Virus record (IMG/VR): IMGVR_UViG_3300046005_001994
Span: 1 to 21,570 of that record
DNA: 21,570 bases
Reading direction: 5' to 3' (one strand)
Origin: a virus
Positions within the stretch are counted from its first letter, which is position 1. Each line of letters starts with the position of its first letter. Below are positions 1-15,410 of the stretch, in pieces. The notes beneath the pieces are model-generated. The model saw only the letters and a list, made by a program, of their open reading frames with translations. It ran no database searches and was not told the origin of the DNA. A program made the translations under genes and the position numbers.

Positions 1-104
1 ATAGGCATATTATAGATGGTATCCCAATCATAGCCACCATTCCCGTGAAATACTATTTCATGAATTTGAGAAAATAGGTAAAGTCTATATTCTTGCGTCA
101 GGCC
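1..104 (-). CDS. Frameshift extension of the gp26-type protein, or separate overlapping ORF (partial, runs off window)
   Basis: Reading the minus strand in the +1 frame relative to the gp26-type gene, codons stay open from base 104 to the window edge (about 34 codons). The peptide begins GLTQEYRLYLFSQIHEIVF and continues with a GNGGYDWDTIYNMP-type stretch, which looks like real protein (amphipathic helix, then aromatic residues). The frame is closed upstream by a TAA at about 132-134, and between that stop and the window edge there is no ATG, GTG or TTG until an ATG almost at the edge. The ORF therefore lacks its own usable start. A run of seven T immediately before it would let a ribosome reading the upstream gene slip by +1. 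Many tail-assembly chaperones of long-tailed phages are made this way; that role here is inference. The alternative is a one-base assembly error in the homopolymer. Confidence 0.55.
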
Positions 105-843
105 AAAAAAAGCTAATCCCCATAGGGATAGTTAAGCCCTCCTCTAAGCCATTTGGACCTTCAAAATCAAACTTCATATCAATATCGGGTTGGATTGACT
201 TAATATATTCTCGAAGTGATCTAGTATCTTTAGCTAAAAAATAATTATCAACGAATTCTCTGATTGTTTTTGTTGTGCTGTCTCCATTAACTGATGTAAT
301 CATATATTTAAACCTAGTAGATGATTCTGGTGAAGCGTTTTTATTAATTTTCTTTAACCCCTGAAGTTCTTGATTGATTTTATTTTCATCACTATGAGTT
401 AATAACTTAAAGGTAATTTTAGTACCTGAAGCCGGTAATTCATATTCGAATTCGTTTTTACCAGGAGTAAATAAGCTTTCGTCAATGGGTTTAGGTTCTA
501 ATGTACTTAAATCTACAGTTACATTTTCTCCTTTGTAAGTAAATTCGTAATCTTTTCCATATCCTAAAACACGGGCTGCTATTAGTAATGCATTTTTATC
601 ACCAACTATAATATCTCCATAATTAATCTTTGATACTATGAGGGATTCAATCAATTTATCCAAAACAGTACCGTTTTGAATATAACTTTGGTTCGTTAAA
701 ATATCTTCATGAGCAGCAGTCATATATTTCATTTCAATTTTTCCACTTGAAAGTGGATTTGTTGATGGATAGACTAAACCTTTAGAAGGTAATTCAACTA
801 TTTCAGTTGGGAATGGGGATTTGTTTGTAACTTCGTTTGACAT
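85..843 (-). CDS. gp26: T4 gp26-like baseplate (hub) assembly protein
   Basis: The 252-residue product resembles the T4_baseplate family (T4 gp26 and its marine phage relatives). The family's N-terminal signature is visible: an ELPSKGLVYP segment at residues 17-26, then KIEMKYMTAAHEDILTNQSY at about 35-54, and a GDKNALLIAARVLGYGKDYE block at 81-100. T4 gp26 is about 208 residues and takes part in baseplate hub assembly. The start is ATG at 841-843, with no Shine-Dalgarno but an A-rich leader (AATAAAATAAAATCTATG). An ATATTTATAA motif lies 13 bases upstream, just after the tail-tube terminator, so the gene probably has its own promoter. The C-terminus ISFFWPDARI ends on a T-run where a +1 frameshift may extend it. 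Family assignment is from memory of the signature; the exact role is less certain. Confidence 0.75.
   Translation of the reverse strand: MSNEVTNKSPFPTEIVELPSKGLVYPSTNPLSSGKIEMKYMTAAHEDILTNQSYIQNGTVLDKLIESLIVSKINYGDIIVGDKNALLIAARVLGYGKDYEFTYKGENVTVDLSTLEPKPIDESLFTPGKNEFEYELPASGTKITFKLLTHSDENKINQELQGLKKINKNASPESSTRFKYMITSVNGDSTTKTIREFVDNYFLAKDTRSLREYIKSIQPDIDMKFDFEGPNGLEEGLTIPMGISFFWPDARI
105..111 (-). promoter_or_regulatory. Putative +1 ribosomal frameshift site (T7 run)
   Basis: On the coding strand the end of the gp26-type gene reads AGC TTT TTT TGG CCT, a run of seven T. A TTT codon in the ribosomal P site can move forward one base and still pair perfectly with TTT, after which the next codon is GGC and the open +1 frame follows. 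The zero frame stops at TAG only eight codons after the second TTT codon. A -1 shift would hit TGA within three codons, so only +1 (or -2) is productive. Confidence 0.5.
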
Positions 844-950: not shown

Positions 951-1439
951 TTAGTAGTTGAGAACTGCGTAATCCATTGCGACTTCCAGTGTTAAGTTTT
1001 GTGCTGCAGATTCATTATCCCAGCTATACTCACCAAAGTTGGCATTTACAATTAAAGCACCTTTAATAATCCATTCACTTACGATATCACCTACTGGGCC
1101 TAATACGTTCATAGTTAAATCTTTCTTATAAAAGTCAGAATAACCATCTCTACCAGTTACTGATTCGTGATGTAAACGTACCCACTCCATTACTGCTTGA
1201 GCTCCGGAAGGTGTGATTGGGTCAAAAAGAGTCATTGTAATGTTACTCCATTTTGATTTTCCTTTTACTTTACGTAAAATGTTAATGTGGTTCAATACTA
1301 CTTCGTCTTGAGTTAAAGTAATTGCGCTTATTCCTTTAATAGTATATGATGGAATACCATCAACATACATAATAAATCTATTTTGTTGTTTCGGCTCAAA
1401 TGCCGTAAAAAATATTTCGTTGGGGTTTAATACTGCCAT
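951..1439 (-). CDS. gp19: Tail tube protein, T4 gp19-like
   Basis: The 162-residue product matches T4 gp19 (163 residues) in length and layout. This protein stacks as hexameric rings to form the inner tube of a contractile tail. Visible features are the N-terminal FEPKQQNRFIMYVDGIPSYTI segment (about 15-35), a central KSKWSNITMTLFDPI strand pair (about 61-75), and the EYSWDNESAAQNLTLEVAMDYA C-terminal strand typical of tube proteins of the Phage_T4_gp19 family. It follows the sheath gene directly, as in T4. The start is ATG at 1437-1439, with no Shine-Dalgarno; the leader AATAAACAAATAAAAACCC is A-rich. An ATATTTATAA motif lies about 17 bases upstream, suggesting transcription additional to read-through from the sheath. 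A strong terminator follows. Confidence 0.93.
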   Translation of the reverse strand: MAVLNPNEIFFTAFEPKQQNRFIMYVDGIPSYTIKGISAITLTQDEVVLNHINILRKVKGKSKWSNITMTLFDPITPSGAQAVMEWVRLHHESVTGRDGYSDFYKKDLTMNVLGPVGDIVSEWIIKGALIVNANFGEYSWDNESAAQNLTLEVAMDYAVLNY

Positions 1440-1484: not shown

Positions 1485-3221
1485 TTAACTAAATGCTACA
1501 CCAGTTGGCATAATGTTAAAGTTCAAATATATAAATTCAGCTGTTCTAGTAGGTTGAATATAAATCGCTCCGACTAACTGATTTCTGTCAATAACATCAG
1601 CAGTATTATTACTCTCATCCATTACTACTTTAAATGCATATAAACCTTGTCTTTGTTGTACTGACTGTAAATATGGATTTACTTGAGCTAGGAATTGGTT
1701 TCTTGTTGCTAATGTATTTTGTTCGAATACTAAAGCGTTTGCAGTTTGACCAATGTATGATTTAAGAGAAATTAATAATCTTCTAACGTTTACTCTATCT
1801 AAAGCAGATGCTTGAGTTTGTAATGTTTTCTGACCGTATGCTACTACTCCTTGTCCTGGGAAAGTTGCTATTGGATTTACTTTACCTTGATATAATGTAT
1901 CTCTATCTGATTGAGTTAGTTTTTGTTCTGCTCTAATTACGCTTGTCAATCCTCCTCTGTTAATACCTGCAGGTGCAAACCAAGGCTCTGCTACTTTATC
2001 GTTATATGCAAACACACCAGCCATTAAAGTTGAAGCTGGAACCCAAACATTTCTACCTGAATCTGGATCTTGAGTTTGGACCCAAGGCCAATATGAAGCT
2101 GCGTATGAATTATTTCTTGAAGCTGCTTGTCCAGTAACTGCTGTTGTGGTTGAATTGTAAGGTACTAAATCTAAAACATATAAGTTATCACCTCTATTTG
2201 CTGTGTTACTAATAATTGAAGTACATTGTGTAGTATGAAGAGAATCACATAAACCTGGAGTTAACAATAAATTAAATTTATAATCATCTGTATTAGATAA
2301 TAGATTAATCATATTAGTATAATCAGTTCCAACTAAACCTTGAGTTTGTGCCGCTATAGTATCATAATATTTTGCAAATGCACCCGGGGTTATACCAAAT
2401 AATGCTCCTACTCCTCCACTAAATGAACCACTAGCTACTAATGGAATGGAACCTGTAAATGCAGCTTTTGGAACACCTGAGTTATCGAAATAATTTGGGG
2501 TTGTTAAAAGAACTGATTTTACTCTTACATATCTTGATGCATTTGGATATGAACCAGTTAATTCAATTTGATTTTTAGTTGAATTATATGCATATGTGTA
2601 ATCACCAATTACGCTTGAAACGTAATTTGGAGAAAATGGATCTAATGATAAATTGGTCCATGTTTCTAAAATTGTTGGAGTTAATGTATTGTCATTTCCT
2701 CTTCTAACTAATAAGTTAAATGTACCTGAACTTGTATTGGAGTTTACGATTTCCCATCTAACGTTATCCGCAGATCCACTAGCAAGAGCACCTGCTGTGT
2801 CCATACTACTTGAGGAATTCATAATAACACCTTTGGATAGTGCTTCAAGAACAAATACTTCTCTGTTTTCAAGAATACTTTTAATAGCACTATTACCTGC
2901 TGAAGCAGTTGCTGTAGTTGCAAATGTCCAAGCACTACTTGCACTTGCTACTCTTGCTACTAATAATGATTCACCACCATTGTTAAAGTAATTGTAAGCT
3001 GCAATCGATGTAAAATAAGTATAAACATCACTACCACTTACAAATGTAGTACCAAATTTATTTTGGTAATCACTGTATGATGTTACTACTGTAGGGATTT
3101 CTAAAGGACCTTTTACTGCTGGACCTATAATAGCGGCACCTACAGTAACTGGTTGTTGACGTACTTGTGATGTATCATTCTCAATGGAGATTACACCGGG
3201 AGAAATTAGGGTTGTTGCCAT
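1485..3221 (-). CDS. gp18: Tail sheath protein, T4 gp18-like
   Basis: This 578-residue contractile sheath subunit polymerises around the tube and shortens on infection. The N-terminus MATTLISPGVISIENDTSQV is the classic sheath opening, whose arm links neighbouring subunits. The C-terminal domain is also clear: NVRRLLISLKSYIGQTANAL (about residues 475-494), a FEQNT...RNQFLAQVNPYL segment, a LYAFKVVMDESNN segment, and an end in YIQPTRTAEFIYLNFNI. T4 gp18 is 659 residues, so the variable outer domains are somewhat smaller here. The start is ATG at 3219-3221, with leader CATAATATAAAAC and no Shine-Dalgarno. The upstream gap holds a 28-bp motif shared only with the scaffold gene, presumably a promoter. 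The tube gene follows after 45 bp. Confidence 0.95.
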   Translation of the reverse strand: MATTLISPGVISIENDTSQVRQQPVTVGAAIIGPAVKGPLEIPTVVTSYSDYQNKFGTTFVSGSDVYTYFTSIAAYNYFNNGGESLLVARVASASSAWTFATTATASAGNSAIKSILENREVFVLEALSKGVIMNSSSSMDTAGALASGSADNVRWEIVNSNTSSGTFNLLVRRGNDNTLTPTILETWTNLSLDPFSPNYVSSVIGDYTYAYNSTKNQIELTGSYPNASRYVRVKSVLLTTPNYFDNSGVPKAAFTGSIPLVASGSFSGGVGALFGITPGAFAKYYDTIAAQTQGLVGTDYTNMINLLSNTDDYKFNLLLTPGLCDSLHTTQCTSIISNTANRGDNLYVLDLVPYNSTTTAVTGQAASRNNSYAASYWPWVQTQDPDSGRNVWVPASTLMAGVFAYNDKVAEPWFAPAGINRGGLTSVIRAEQKLTQSDRDTLYQGKVNPIATFPGQGVVAYGQKTLQTQASALDRVNVRRLLISLKSYIGQTANALVFEQNTLATRNQFLAQVNPYLQSVQQRQGLYAFKVVMDESNNTADVIDRNQLVGAIYIQPTRTAEFIYLNFNIMPTGVAFS

Positions 3222-3532: not shown

Positions 3533-4393
3533 TTAAATTTTATTTACTACTTCGGTTGTGAATACTAATTTTGATTTATTAGTAAACTTTTTTATTGCGT
3601 TAATATCTTTCTGAGGGACATCCGGAACTATATGTCCATTTAATTTAATACTAAATGTGGTTTTTACTACTCTTTCTTTATCATCTGATAATTCATGTAT
3701 TCTATCAAATGAATCTATCCTTGCTTGAAATTTAAATTTTTCAGGATCTCCCCAATATGAATCAGAAGCGTATTCTACTGCTTCTATAATTTTATTTAAT
3801 TGTTCTACATAATAAGTCATTATAGCACATGAATAAGTTACTGTTAAGTAATCAGGTACAACTGTAGCATAAAATGTTTGTTCAGGAACAACATTATTTA
3901 AAACTGAAAATTGATCATATGTGTTTTTTTGAGAATACTTTTTAGTAAATACTCCAAAATTGTTAGGCATATTAGCATCCAATTTATTTGCTACCGTTCT
4001 ATTCTTAGAAATTGAATCTAATTTAAACATTATCATAGGTGCCATTATTCTACCTTGAGCATCTCTATAATATCCGTCTTTTTGAAATGATTTCCACTTT
4101 TCAGGAGAACCATAAATTATTGGAACTGCTAGTCTTTCTCCGTTTTGAATTACAAATGGTTGAATGACATTTTTAAAATAATACATTACAGCTTCATCAA
4201 TATCTTGAATACCAATACTAAATGGTTTTACATCATCTCCATCAAATGAAGTTTGTTGTGCTCTATTAGGGACAACTACATCATTTGGATTTCCCACAGG
4301 CTGGAACCCTACTCCTCTTTGTTCAGTAGGAGTCTGTAAAGAAATAGATATTTCCTTTTGTGTTTTAGGTGTTGGGTTATTTTTTCTAGCCAT
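3533..4393 (-). CDS. gp15: Tail sheath stabiliser and completion protein, T4 gp15-like
   Basis: The 286-residue product aligns by eye with T4 gp15 (272 residues), the hexameric tail terminator that caps tube and sheath and joins tail to neck. Shared blocks are AVMYYFKNVIQPFVIQNGER (about 68-87), VPIIYGSPEKW, APMIMFKLDSIS, then a VVPDYLTVTYSCAIMTYYVE block near 175-195 and the FSIKLNGHIVPDVPQ strand near the C-terminus (T4 has FEVNGWMYPPV there). The first 55 residues are polar and probably disordered. The ATG at 4391-4393 is only 6 bases from an ATATTTATAA motif that itself abuts the gp14 stop. The order gp13-gp14-gp15 is the same as in T4. Confidence 0.85.
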   Translation of the reverse strand: MARKNNPTPKTQKEISISLQTPTEQRGVGFQPVGNPNDVVVPNRAQQTSFDGDDVKPFSIGIQDIDEAVMYYFKNVIQPFVIQNGERLAVPIIYGSPEKWKSFQKDGYYRDAQGRIMAPMIMFKLDSISKNRTVANKLDANMPNNFGVFTKKYSQKNTYDQFSVLNNVVPEQTFYATVVPDYLTVTYSCAIMTYYVEQLNKIIEAVEYASDSYWGDPEKFKFQARIDSFDRIHELSDDKERVVKTTFSIKLNGHIVPDVPQKDINAIKKFTNKSKLVFTTEVVNKI

Positions 4394-6313: not shown

Positions 6314-9109
6314 TTATACTACTGAACCTGTTATTTTTAATATTGGGAACCCCTTCATGTTAGTAGTTGATAATAATGCTATAGATGAAGTGTTTGCTGG
6401 GTTAGGTAATGCTGCTCCACCATCTGCAGTAACAGATAGTCCAATATAAGAGGCTACGGTAGTAGTAGATGGGATAATACCAAAATAATCACTCCATGCC
6501 GTAGCATTAGATGGGCCAAGTGCTTGAGTTGTGCTTCCTGAAGGAGATATTGCTAACCAATATATTTCTCCTTTTTTTAAAGTTGGTCTATTAATATCAG
6601 ATATTGCTATTTGTACAAATGCCTGGGATGTTGATATTTGACTTATTAATCCATAATCTGCTAATAATGTTCCAGGGAGTGCAGTAGATCCTTGTGCTAA
6701 TAGTACTGATGCTTCTGTGCTATTATATATTCCCAATCTATATGAACCTGTATTAGCAGCTAATGTACCTCTTACAAGTGCGCCTATAGAAGATATTAAT
6801 GTATCTCTTGATAATTGTATAGGATAATACCTTATATTTGCGGAAGTATCTGTAGTAGAGGATCCTGCTAAACTAATTATTGGAGTAGTTAATTTTGCAG
6901 GGATTATGTAGTTATTGGGCCACCCAGCTGATAGAGGTTTTCCTTCAAATTGAACTGATTGAGCTAAAGAAGCGGTTACAGCATAAGAAGCACTCACTAC
7001 ACTTCCTAATAGTGTTTGAGCAGTTAAAGCGTATGATGATGTAGTTGCAAAGCTTGAACTTAGTACATAAGAAGCGCTTACTGCATTTAAAACATAAGAT
7101 GCACTTTGTGCATTTTGGACGTATGATGCTGTTGTTGCAGTACCTTGTAGCGATCCAGAAAAGGATGTTGCGTTTAAGCTTCCAGTAATTGCATATGAAC
7201 CTGTTAATTGTTTTGAGTTAACCCAAACACTACCACTTCTAATAAGTAAGTCTCCAGATGATAGAGATCCAGTATTTATTGCAACATTGTGTAATTCATC
7301 TAACTCATACCCATTATCTACCTTAACAAAAATCTTACCTTGATTAATGTGAGCATATTCAACATACCCAACAATAACCATATGTTGGGGTGCTTGTGGT
7401 TTTATATTTGTAAGATGTCCTGGTGTGGTTGGGGACAGATATAATAGATCGCCATCTACCCATGTCTCTCCTTGCAGTGTGCCCGTTGTGTTTATATTTC
7501 GTACTTGACCTGAAAGGGTTATAAATCCTTCTTGATTGTTATCTATATTTTCAGTGACAACTCCTAAGGTAGTTGCTGAGTTGGCATCATTATTAGCTTG
7601 TGCTAACACTACTGCTAATCGCTGACCTTGAGCTCCTCCTTCAGCAACCGATCTAACGCGAACAACATAGTAATCAGCTTCCAATAGATTGGCTCCTGTT
7701 TTATTTACAACTCTAGCTACTTCTTCTTGTCCAATTTGTAGTGTAACATTACCTCCTTTTAATCCTATATCTAAAGTTCCATCAGTATCATTCCATTTTA
7801 ACCTACCAACTGCTCCTGCGTTTGATGCGGTTGTATCAAAATCAACATAGTCTACACCTGATATAAAGGATGAACCAGACATTAAGATTGATCCAGTTAT
7901 TATTTGATTACCTATAAATGTATTTGAGCCTGTAGTTGCAAATATAGTACTATCTTTTCCGTCTAGTAAATCTGCATTTAATGCATAAGAAGAGGTTGAT
8001 GAGTAAGAAGCACTTACTACACTTCCTAATAATGTTTGGGCAGTTAAAGCGTATGATGATGTAGTTGCAAATGAACTGCTTATTGCTTGCAATACATAAG
8101 ATGCACTTTGTGCATTTTGGACGTATGAAGCAGTTTGAGCATTTAATACGTAAGAAGCAGTAGTTGAAAAGGATGAACTTACGGCATTCAGTACATAGGA
8201 TGATGTTGTAGCATAAGATGATGTTCCTTGTAATGATCCGGTTATACCATTATTTACGATTAATTTATTATCAATTGTTACTCCTGAGCTTGATATTATT
8301 AATGTTGGGTTTCCATAATTAGCATTTGTGTAAATGTAAAGTGGTTTATTAATCTCTGTGCCTATGCTTGCTTCACCAGTATTATCTACAAAACCAGCTA
8401 ATACTGATTGAGTTGGATTATAAGTATCGTTGTATATTCCAAAAGCCCAGGGTTCAGCGTTAGCTCCATGTACTTGTAATATGGTGTTTATTCCTGATCC
8501 TGATATTATTTGGTTTCCTTTAAAGTTATTTGATCCGGTTGTTGCAAATGAACCTGTATCAATAGAAGAACCACCACCACCATTTAAAGCAAATGATGCT
8601 GTTATCGCATAGCTAGAAGTTCCAAGTAATGAACCTGTAAATCCTTGTGTTGATGTTACACTACCACTAAAAATAGCAGGTCCTATATTTGTAAAAGTAG
8701 AAGACCCGGAAACTGTAAATGAACCTGTAATTTGAATACTACTTGTTGTATTCCAAATATTTCCTCCAACATATGTAAATGGAGCAGATGAACCTGAAGG
8801 GCCTTGCGATCCTGAAGGACCTTGTGAACCTGATGGTCCTTGGGAACCTGAAAGACCTTGTGATCCTGAAGGACCTTGTGAACCGGAAGGCCCCTGTGAA
8901 CCGGAAGGACCTTGCGATCCTGAAGGTCCAGTGTTTCCTGTTGAACCTAATGGACCAGTTAATATCTGAACGACGCTAGTAATAGGTTGCTCAACACTAA
9001 CCGTTTTACAGCAATCATTATCTATTATCTTGATAGTATTATTAGTGTTTACTATCTTAACAGTATTATTATTCGGAATAATATTTATTGGTTTTGCACA
9101 ATCTGCCAT
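6314..9109 (-). CDS. Large fibre-like structural protein with collagen-like stem and S/A/Y repeats
   Basis: The 931-residue protein has a short N-terminal domain (1-51, with C4, C33 and C34), then 19 uninterrupted Gly-X-Y triplets (52-108, mostly GPS GSQ) as in trimeric phage collagen stems. Long stretches of S/T/A/Y-rich repeats follow (units like TASYVLNAQ, SSSFATTSSYALTAQTLLGS). They are interrupted by a beta-rich domain containing EEVARVVNKTGANLLEADYY, WVDGDLLYLS and APQHMVIVGYVEYAH. The C-terminal part (from about VQFEGKPLSAGWPNNY) looks like a separate beta domain. There is no signal peptide. The start ATG overlaps the stop of the upstream gene (TAATG), implying translational coupling. 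It probably forms a fibre or whisker on the head, neck or tail for host binding. Which structure it joins cannot be told from sequence. Confidence 0.8.
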   Translation of the reverse strand: MADCAKPINIIPNNNTVKIVNTNNTIKIIDNDCCKTVSVEQPITSVVQILTGPLGSTGNTGPSGSQGPSGSQGPSGSQGPSGSQGLSGSQGPSGSQGPSGSQGPSGSSAPFTYVGGNIWNTTSSIQITGSFTVSGSSTFTNIGPAIFSGSVTSTQGFTGSLLGTSSYAITASFALNGGGGSSIDTGSFATTGSNNFKGNQIISGSGINTILQVHGANAEPWAFGIYNDTYNPTQSVLAGFVDNTGEASIGTEINKPLYIYTNANYGNPTLIISSSGVTIDNKLIVNNGITGSLQGTSSYATTSSYVLNAVSSSFSTTASYVLNAQTASYVQNAQSASYVLQAISSSFATTSSYALTAQTLLGSVVSASYSSTSSYALNADLLDGKDSTIFATTGSNTFIGNQIITGSILMSGSSFISGVDYVDFDTTASNAGAVGRLKWNDTDGTLDIGLKGGNVTLQIGQEEVARVVNKTGANLLEADYYVVRVRSVAEGGAQGQRLAVVLAQANNDANSATTLGVVTENIDNNQEGFITLSGQVRNINTTGTLQGETWVDGDLLYLSPTTPGHLTNIKPQAPQHMVIVGYVEYAHINQGKIFVKVDNGYELDELHNVAINTGSLSSGDLLIRSGSVWVNSKQLTGSYAITGSLNATSFSGSLQGTATTASYVQNAQSASYVLNAVSASYVLSSSFATTSSYALTAQTLLGSVVSASYAVTASLAQSVQFEGKPLSAGWPNNYIIPAKLTTPIISLAGSSTTDTSANIRYYPIQLSRDTLISSIGALVRGTLAANTGSYRLGIYNSTEASVLLAQGSTALPGTLLADYGLISQISTSQAFVQIAISDINRPTLKKGEIYWLAISPSGSTTQALGPSNATAWSDYFGIIPSTTTVASYIGLSVTADGGAALPNPANTSSIALLSTTNMKGFPILKITGSVV
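6984..7050 (-). repeat. Long direct repeat within fibre gene, copy A (pair at 8004-8070)
   Basis: The 67-base segment matches 8004-8070 at 64 positions, exactly 1020 bases (340 codons) apart and in frame. Both encode the same LTAQTLLGSVVSASY-type segment. A second pair of 35 identical bases follows at 7092-7126 and 8094-8128. These exact matches could allow recombination that deletes the domain between them. Confidence 0.85.
8004..8070 (-). repeat. Long direct repeat within fibre gene, copy B
   Basis: Partner of 6984-7050, with 3 mismatches in 67 bases and the same reading frame. The two copies flank the beta-rich middle domain of the fibre protein. Confidence 0.85.
8786..8956 (-). repeat. 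18-bp tandem repeats encoding collagen-like GPSGSQ units
   Basis: The DNA is a degenerate 18-base tandem array (plus-strand unit like CCTGAAGGACCTTGTGAA) encoding the hexapeptide GPSGSQ. Third codon positions vary (ggt/gga, gat/gaa) while the protein is almost constant, with one GLS variant. Selection therefore acts on the triplet protein pattern rather than recent DNA duplication alone. Confidence 0.9.
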
Positions 9110-13934: not shown

Positions 13935-15410
13935 TTATTTAATTTTCTTAAGTCTTCTAAGAATAGATTCTACTATTTTATCAACTACTGATTCTTTTAA
14001 TTGTCTGTCTTTTGGAGCCATTGAATTGTAGATTTTTTTACCTTCATCTCCCATTTTACTTACTAAATCCATAATTTCCTTTTCGGATCTTTTACCGGGT
14101 GCGTATTTTTTACTGTCGTCACTCATTTCAAAATACCAATCATGTTTTGATAATAGATTTTTCAATGAATCTTTATTTGCTGATTCTTTTAATTGTCTGT
14201 CTTTTGGGGCCATTGAGTTGTAAATTTCTTTACCTTTAGCTCCCATTCTATTTACTAAATCCATAACTTTCTTTTCAGATGCTTGACCGTCTTTGTATTT
14301 ATTATTATCGTCACTCATTTCAAAATACCAGTCATGTCTTGATATTAAGTCTTTTAATATATCTTCGTTAGATTCTTGATTTTCTTCTAACTTTCTACTA
14401 CTTATAATTTTATCAACAGCATTCTTAGTTCCTCCAAAACCTTTTACACCTTTACCACTTAATATGTATCTTAATTCTTCATCGGATATTTCAGGATCAT
14501 TAATTTGCTTATTATATCTCATTCGTAAAATGTTTTCAGATCTACCATCTGTCTCTTTATTCAACTCTTCAGGTGATCGTTCTAAAGGTGTTATGTCAGG
14601 ATTTGATAAAGGTCTTGATAATATATCTCTATCATAAATACCTTCTTTTAATTCCATTTTAATTGTTTTTGGTTTACCTGGAGTGGTCATTTTTTGTACA
14701 CCTTTAGAAGATTGAGCTTTCATATCCATTTCTTTTACTTTCTTAGGCATACCCGTTTTGTATTCACTTTTACCTGAATCTTTAACGTTTGATTTTGGAG
14801 CTGTTTGTTTATTATCTAAATCACCATACCCACTAGACTTATATTTACCTTTTGCTTCTTTAGGCTTACCTAAACCTGGAGCATCTTCAGTATATCCCAC
14901 TCCTTCTGTTCCAAATTGGCCGTTTTTAATGTAGTATAACGGGTCTTTAGATATGTTTTTAGTGACGATGTCCATTAATTGATCCTTCGTTTTATCTGCG
15001 TTTTTAGGCGCTTTTAATTCGGTATAAAATCCATTAAGTACTTCTTGACCACTTAAGTTATCGATATTTTTACGATTTTTGTTATCAAAACTATGAGCAT
15101 CAGTATCTTCTACATATTTGGATACTTTTTTAGTATCAGCTTTAACTTTTTCTTCTTCCATTTCAGATAAGAAATTTTTAAATGCTATTTCATAGTCTTG
15201 TTTTGGAGATGGTTCCCAATCGTTAATGGGTCGTAATCCAACAAAATTCTCGTTAATTACCCCTCTATTTTTAAGGATTTTTTCGGTTTGTTCAAAATCA
15301 GAAAAATTAGTTATCATATCCGGATAAAGCGATTTTGCTTCCTTTAAAAATATATGTTTACTTCCTTTTCCTTCTTTAATAAGATTATATTGTGTTTGTA
15401 AAGTTTTCAT
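13935..15410 (-). CDS. Putative prohead core or internal head protein with duplicated C-terminal domain
   Basis: This 491-residue hydrophilic, lysine-rich protein is not a family I can name. The N-terminal ~90 residues are helical; residues about 170-260 are low-complexity and probably disordered. A tandem pair of 57-residue domains occupies 354-410 and 418-474; both copies contain HDWYFEMSDD, a K/R-rich linker, a helical MDLVxxMG segment and the identical YNSMAPKDRQLKES. It contains many sites of the gp21 type (L/I-x-E followed by a small residue): IKE at 11-13, LKE at 22-24, an LKE|G in the middle, LKE|S after each repeat and IVE|S near the end. Together with its place just before the protease gene, where T4 has core genes 67/68, this suggests a protein packed in the prohead core and cut during maturation. 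The ATG is at 15408-15410, with leader AATAAACA. Confidence 0.75.
   Translation of the reverse strand: MKTLQTQYNLIKEGKGSKHIFLKEAKSLYPDMITNFSDFEQTEKILKNRGVINENFVGLRPINDWEPSPKQDYEIAFKNFLSEMEEEKVKADTKKVSKYVEDTDAHSFDNKNRKNIDNLSGQEVLNGFYTELKAPKNADKTKDQLMDIVTKNISKDPLYYIKNGQFGTEGVGYTEDAPGLGKPKEAKGKYKSSGYGDLDNKQTAPKSNVKDSGKSEYKTGMPKKVKEMDMKAQSSKGVQKMTTPGKPKTIKMELKEGIYDRDILSRPLSNPDITPLERSPEELNKETDGRSENILRMRYNKQINDPEISDEELRYILSGKGVKGFGGTKNAVDKIISSRKLEENQESNEDILKDLISRHDWYFEMSDDNNKYKDGQASEKKVMDLVNRMGAKGKEIYNSMAPKDRQLKESANKDSLKNLLSKHDWYFEMSDDSKKYAPGKRSEKEIMDLVSKMGDEGKKIYNSMAPKDRQLKESVVDKIVESILRRLKKIK
13989..14159 (-). repeat. Intragenic tandem domain repeat, unit 2
   Basis: It encodes residues 418-474 of the 491-residue core-type protein. 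It is a diverged copy of 14181-14351, offset by 192 bases (64 codons), with long near-identical ends and a variable centre. Confidence 0.85.
14181..14351 (-). repeat. Intragenic tandem domain repeat, unit 1
   Basis: It encodes residues 354-410 and is the partner of 13989-14159. The ends (HDWYFEMSDD and YNSMAPKDRQLKES) are conserved at the protein level, while the middle differs. Confidence 0.85.

Follow-up and report, generated by a model that had tools for sequence, protein, structure and literature searches.

Near one end of the virus record analysed here lies a gp26-type gene that closes with an ordinary stop codon, and a second reading frame without a start codon runs on past it. How is this second frame translated? 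The window, meaning the whole stretch of 21,570 bases, carries the T4-like structural genes terminase, portal gp20, capsid gp23, sheath and tube. The virus is T4-like, and its host probably belongs to the Flavobacterium-type bacteria. Two repeats were observed elsewhere in the window. An 18/54-base tandem repeat at 8789-8926 encodes collagen-like GPSGSQ repeats in a 931-aa ORF (9109..6314), and a 192-base repeat present twice, 86% alike, at 13988-14344 forms a duplicated protein segment inside ORF 15410..13935. The features at the locus are as follows.

85..843, minus strand: gp26-type gene, short tail assembly chaperone form (TAC-N), 252 aa, assigned by phrog_150 and similarity to Immuto
87-85, minus strand: stop codon TAG of the gp26-type gene
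105..111, minus strand: T7 slippery run, with zero-frame TTT (111-109), TTT (108-106) and TGG (105-103)
132..134, minus strand: TAA closing the +1 frame upstream
1..104, minus strand: start of the +1-frame extension (T domain, GLTQEYR...YNMP), which runs off the window
136..144, minus strand: Shine-Dalgarno (SD)-like element GAGGAGGGC (GAGGAGG), 25-33 nt upstream of the T run, identified by anti-SD energies and shuffles
951..1439, minus strand: tail tube gene, upstream context
1485..3221, minus strand: tail sheath gene, upstream context

The minus-strand ORF 843..85 ends in ...PMGISFFWPDARI and then the stop (ISFFWPDARI). In mRNA sense the gene end reads ATT AGC TTT TTT TGG CCT GAC GCA AGA ATA TAG. 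Both the coordinates and the translation agreed with the first-pass annotation, which had described this ending and the seven T (105-111) over the FF codons. Across the 22 genes of the window (6,877 codons), a T7 run occurs on the coding strand only once, at this site. The +1 frame translates as FF-GLTQEYRLYLFSQIHEIVFHGNGGYDWDTIYNMP, with no stop as far as base 1. Since the TAA at 132-134 closes this frame upstream, the extension lacks a start codon: no ATG, GTG or TTG was found in the window +1 frame between that TAA and mid-domain, and the first ATG lies at 8-6, near the window edge, as had been claimed. YUU_UGG is found in frame at two further places in the window with no sign of shifting there, so this tetramer cannot be enough by itself. 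UGG, the zero-frame codon in the A site, is used no less often than GGC, the shifted codon (9.0 vs 3.3 per 1000).

The sequence below base 1 was obtained from a near-identical contig, L009, which matches the first 900 window bases at 899 of 900 nt. It contains the complete extension at 3740-4030, which spans 97 codons past the shift (GLTQEYRLYLFSQIHEIVFHGNGGYDWDTIYNMPIWLRKFTFNKIKEYY...), and the next ORF comes after it. In L009 a single N-domain ORF precedes the startless extension, unlike the separate gp26 and gp51 genes of T4. The large gene annotated next codes for the tape measure protein in both Flavobacterium phage Immuto and Listeria phage LIS04. In these isolates the overlapping ORFs thus lie directly upstream of the tape measure gene, as in G/GT-type pairs. 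At the end of the L009 extension (GGCATCGCGAAAGTGATGCCTTTT) we observed a hairpin with T's behind it that resembles an intrinsic terminator. It overlaps the extension stop codon and precedes the next ORF. Similar hairpins lie behind the extension ORF in L011 and L014.

We examined which family the two parts belong to. The gp26-type protein matched phrog_150 (baseplate hub) with an E value of 1.4e-11, which bears out its first assignment as gp26-type, and it was 63% identical to the product of an Immuto gene. Both T4 gp26 and T4 gp51 are members of phrog_150. Pfam PF12322, which covers the whole of gp26 and residues 1-201 of gp51, gave no direct match for the window protein; the relative SP-15 matched it with an E value of 1.5e-28. 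Once the extension was fused, the phrog_150 match grew from 233 to 265 of 282 positions. An extension of the Mel-JY01-like clade matched phrog_634 (the gp51 family, E 0.0046), and when the extension profile was aligned to gp51 C-termini with hhalign, the probability was 88.8 and the E value 2.5e-6. The first-pass annotation had listed a lack of any homology for the extension among the findings that would count against it. The signal in single-profile searches was weak: the similarity of the extension to T4 gp51 was not significant, hmmsearch with the N and T profiles against T4 gp26/gp51 gave nothing significant, and no match for the extension or the site was found in Pfam, NCBIfam or Rfam. 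Homology to gp26/gp51 is drawn from phrog_150, from PF12322 via SP-15 and from hhalign. By profile comparison the extension resembles the gp51 C-terminal domain. Because of the fused phrog_150 match and the comparison with gp51 C-termini, the short form corresponds to gp26 and the proposed frameshift product to gp51.

AlphaFold2, run on the T domain without the two rows that came from phage records, predicted three helices for the extension, with block pLDDT of 81-92 over residues 1-60. The predicted structure had no significant match in BFVD or PDB. In the near relatives L009-L014, pN/pS of the extension in its own frame was 0.14-0.42 where synonymous changes exist, and mostly 0.6 or more in its other two frames. 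The extension evolves as a protein under purifying selection in these near relatives. Over distant pairs the median dN/dS of 0.47-0.52 is saturated and uninformative. A Phe-codon statistic was given no weight, since it takes no account of phylogeny and its rows had been chosen by pattern.

Relatives were collected from phages and viral contigs and confirmed by tblastn. The slippery T-run followed by the +1 ORF, the pattern that the first-pass annotation had proposed to look for, recurred in 161 related loci (108 after dereplication), with an ORF of 67-116 residues, counting FF. The conserved forms of the site are TTTTTTTGG, TTTCTTTGG and CTTTTTTGG, and TGG is rarely replaced by TAC or TTC. Among the dereplicated loci, TTTTTTTGGCCT was present in 94, TTTCTTTGGCCT in 7 and CTTTTTTGGCCT in 3; the remaining four had TTTTTTTACCCT (two), TTTCTTTACCCT (one) and TTTTTTTGGAAT (one, Rhodothermus phage RM378). 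TTTCTTTGG (TTTCTTT) accounts for 8 dereplicated loci when the TAC form is counted in. The site and the same +1 ORF were also found in eight bacterial MAG contigs, several of them labelled Flavobacteriales, one of which has the form TTTTTTTTC. In the loci with the site, the zero-frame stop follows 15-24 nt after the start of the run, with a single exception at 39 nt.

Homopolymers are prone to error, and an assembly error or a decaying gene could produce two broken frames of this kind. The same site was found in many metagenomes, however, and no fused in-frame version exists in any of the 161 loci, while the extension is under selection. An assembly indel is also unlikely because T7 is present in all five near relatives, which come from different metagenomes, and the site or a variant of it is present in separately sequenced cultured phages (Immutovirus, Mel-JY01 and RM378). 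We regard the probability of an artefact or decay as negligible. Existing annotations miss the full extension in the isolates examined.

The site variants bear on how the frame is changed. The form TTCTTTTGG, TTC TTT_TGG, occurs in L185-L194 and L196-L199, GXN1 has TTCTTTCGT (TTCTTTC), TTC TTT_CGT, and L004 has TTTCTATTC, TTT_CTA. In SP-15 (TTT TTT_CAC) and LIS04 (TTT_TTT AGT) the run is T6. YUU_Y is retained in all interrupted variants, and both CUU_U and UUU_C occur. The seven-base homopolymer in the window and most relatives would suit transcriptional slippage, in which RNA polymerase drops one or adds two bases in T7 and creates one continuous ORF. The two-ORF layout is nevertheless kept where the homopolymer is broken (TTTCTTT, TTCTTTTGG, TTCTTTC and the T6 of SP-15 and LIS04), and YUU_Y is the constant feature, which makes slippage of the polymerase very improbable. 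A -2 ribosomal frameshift, a type reported for phage Mu, would reach the same frame, and on a pure T7 the P-site tRNA could re-pair. The codons that it would need in TTTCTTTGG, TTCTTTTGG and TTCTTTCGT (TTC, TCT and TCT) misfit the P-site tRNA, whereas the +1 codons fit, and we consider a -2 shift very improbable. The TTTCTATTC of L004 also interrupts the homopolymer and leaves no room for -2 re-pairing. Because broken homopolymers keep YUU_Y, the divergent relatives, which discriminate better than the window itself, argue against both of these readings. A +1 re-pairing is taken as the mechanism since the variants keep YUU followed by U or C and CUU_U is the prfB site. The first-pass annotation had proposed slippage of TTT onto TTT; this stands for UUU, and the general rule is YUU_Y instead.

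We then considered whether the extension could be a separate protein, made by re-initiation or from a non-canonical start. In its favour, annotations treat the gp51 of cyanophages as a short gene in its own right, the site is preceded by an SD-like element, and two relatives, L195 and L200, carry the domain in a different frame, where it begins with an ATG close after the gp26 stop. Ordinary starts in relatives had been named beforehand as evidence against a frameshift. They do speak against it in L195 and L200 themselves; both nest inside the +1 clade, where the shift was lost secondarily. Within the window no ATG, GTG or TTG stands in the +1 frame from its stop to mid-domain, and 45 of the 108 relatives also lack one up to and including 21 nt past the shift. 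In the other 63 an NTG codon is present somewhere upstream in the +1 frame, at scattered positions, and with separate initiation the T run would have no reason for conservation. As in G/GT-type pairs, the slippery site is conserved and the second ORF has no conserved start. Independent synthesis of the extension is thus very improbable in the window.

The SD-like element was compared with the rest of the genes. An element at the same offset is conserved in many relatives beyond codon constraint and is absent in a good part of them. The mean best anti-SD energy was -8.9 kcal/mol at the element vs -4.3 kcal/mol elsewhere in these genes. At -36..-24, the anti-SD energy was -6.7 vs -3.4 in synonymous shuffles, with a mean rank of 0.26; at -12..0, the prfB spacing, there was no excess over synonymous shuffles (rank 0.52). 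The window element is built on two GAG codons in a gene set that uses GAG at 7 and GAA at 54 per 1000. There is no conserved start codon behind it. The spacing of GAGGAGG fits neither prfB nor dnaX. The element could be a new kind of distant +1 stimulator, with a spacing unlike those two systems, that makes UUU_UGG a programmed site, but we consider this unlikely. Downstream of the site no consensus RNA fold was found (alifold energy 0, mean z -0.7).

These results suggest, with high confidence, a +1 frameshift at UUU into a startless C-terminal extension, which would yield a T4-type tail chaperone pair from one gene. The probable programmed +1 frameshift of the first-pass annotation is supported by the conserved site, the selected extension, the missing conserved start, the homology to gp26/gp51 and the location ahead of the tape measure gene in isolates. 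Most ribosomes would make the short gp26-like form ending in FFWPDARI, and a fraction would shift +1 at UUU_UUU_UGG. There, P-site tRNA-Phe (tRNA-Leu where the codon is CUU) would re-pair from YUU to the overlapping UUY, and decoding would resume at GGC. The shift product would carry about 97 additional residues that form a helical C-terminal domain like that of gp51. We infer that it is the ribosome that shifts, how efficiently it does so, and that the products act as chaperones. By analogy, the pair may act like lambda gpG/gpGT, with the short form coating the tape measure protein and the long form recruiting tail tube subunits.

The site resembles that of prfB, in which P-site CUU or UUU is followed by U and moves to UUU (YUU_U). 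In prfB, however, the stop codon UGA is in the A site, where the window clade has the sense codon UGG, and the SD lies 3 nt upstream, in contrast to the SD-like element at -33..-25 here. The lambda gpG/gpGT-type tail chaperone frameshift was reportedly described by Xu, Hendrix and Duda in 2004 and is reviewed in PMC5009743. Lambda shares the two overlapping ORFs before the tape measure gene and an extension reached by the shift only; its shift is -1, on a different slippery site, and the likeness is one of layout, with no sequence similarity claimed. According to PMC10885494, the codons that slip +1 most readily ahead of a stop are CUU, CCC and UUU. The chaperone frameshift has been described as conserved 'except T4', with HSTV-2 very likely using +1 (PMC5009743), and PMC3004832 lists T4 gp26 and gp51 among the chaperones of hub assembly.

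T4 itself shares with the window clade the N-terminal family, the gp51-like C-terminal domain and the short and long forms; it encodes them in two separate genes, whereas the window clade would use one gene with a +1 shift. Cyanophages and other T4-like phages share the junction and the poly-T run, and their gp51 domain likewise follows the stop immediately in a different frame; that frame is -1, the opposite direction. In 10 isolates, comprising cyanophages and phages of Vibrio, Stenotrophomonas, Sinorhizobium, Pseudomonas and Aeromonas, we found this -1 arrangement of the gp51 domain immediately after gp26. T_TTT_TTC was present in eight of them, T_TTT_TTT in phiN3 and a shorter run in K475. 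Atu_ph07 has a -1 ORF at TTTTTTC. In S-PM2 and P-SSM2, GGAGGG lies about 10 nt upstream of the -1 site. The cyanophage 'short gp51' was observed in the gp26 -1 frame behind T_TTT_TTC in L175 (3150-3200), L176, L177 and others, and is probably made by a -1 frameshift, although annotations give it a gene to itself.

The first-pass annotation knew of no established case in the T4 gp26 family. This did not hold for the family as a whole: PMC10885494 and PMC12846349 cite Vladimirov, Gautam and Davidson (2022) for identifying the chaperones of tail assembly in T4-like phages, and PMC12846349 credits them with poly-T -1 signals. By these citations, gp26/gp51 are already known as tail assembly chaperones, and frameshifting in T4-like relatives has been mentioned in the literature. 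The conserved +1 version is apparently new; no description of it or of the switch in direction was found in the literature searched, which left most subscription papers outside.

On an N-domain tree of 50 rows, in which the long branches of RM378 and T4 leave some placements unsure, the states +1, -1 and separate need three changes, compared with about 16 in shuffles. One orthologous gene pair would thus deliver the same two products in four ways: by a -1 shift in cyanophages and others (inferred), by a +1 shift in the window clade, from two genes in T4 and from a separate ATG in L195 and L200. Because the tree states need only three changes, the family offers a natural experiment on the evolution of recoding direction. 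A 'short gp51' that is the -1 extension of gp26 would also explain why cyanophage gp51 lacks its first ~200 residues, a puzzle raised in PMC3037559.
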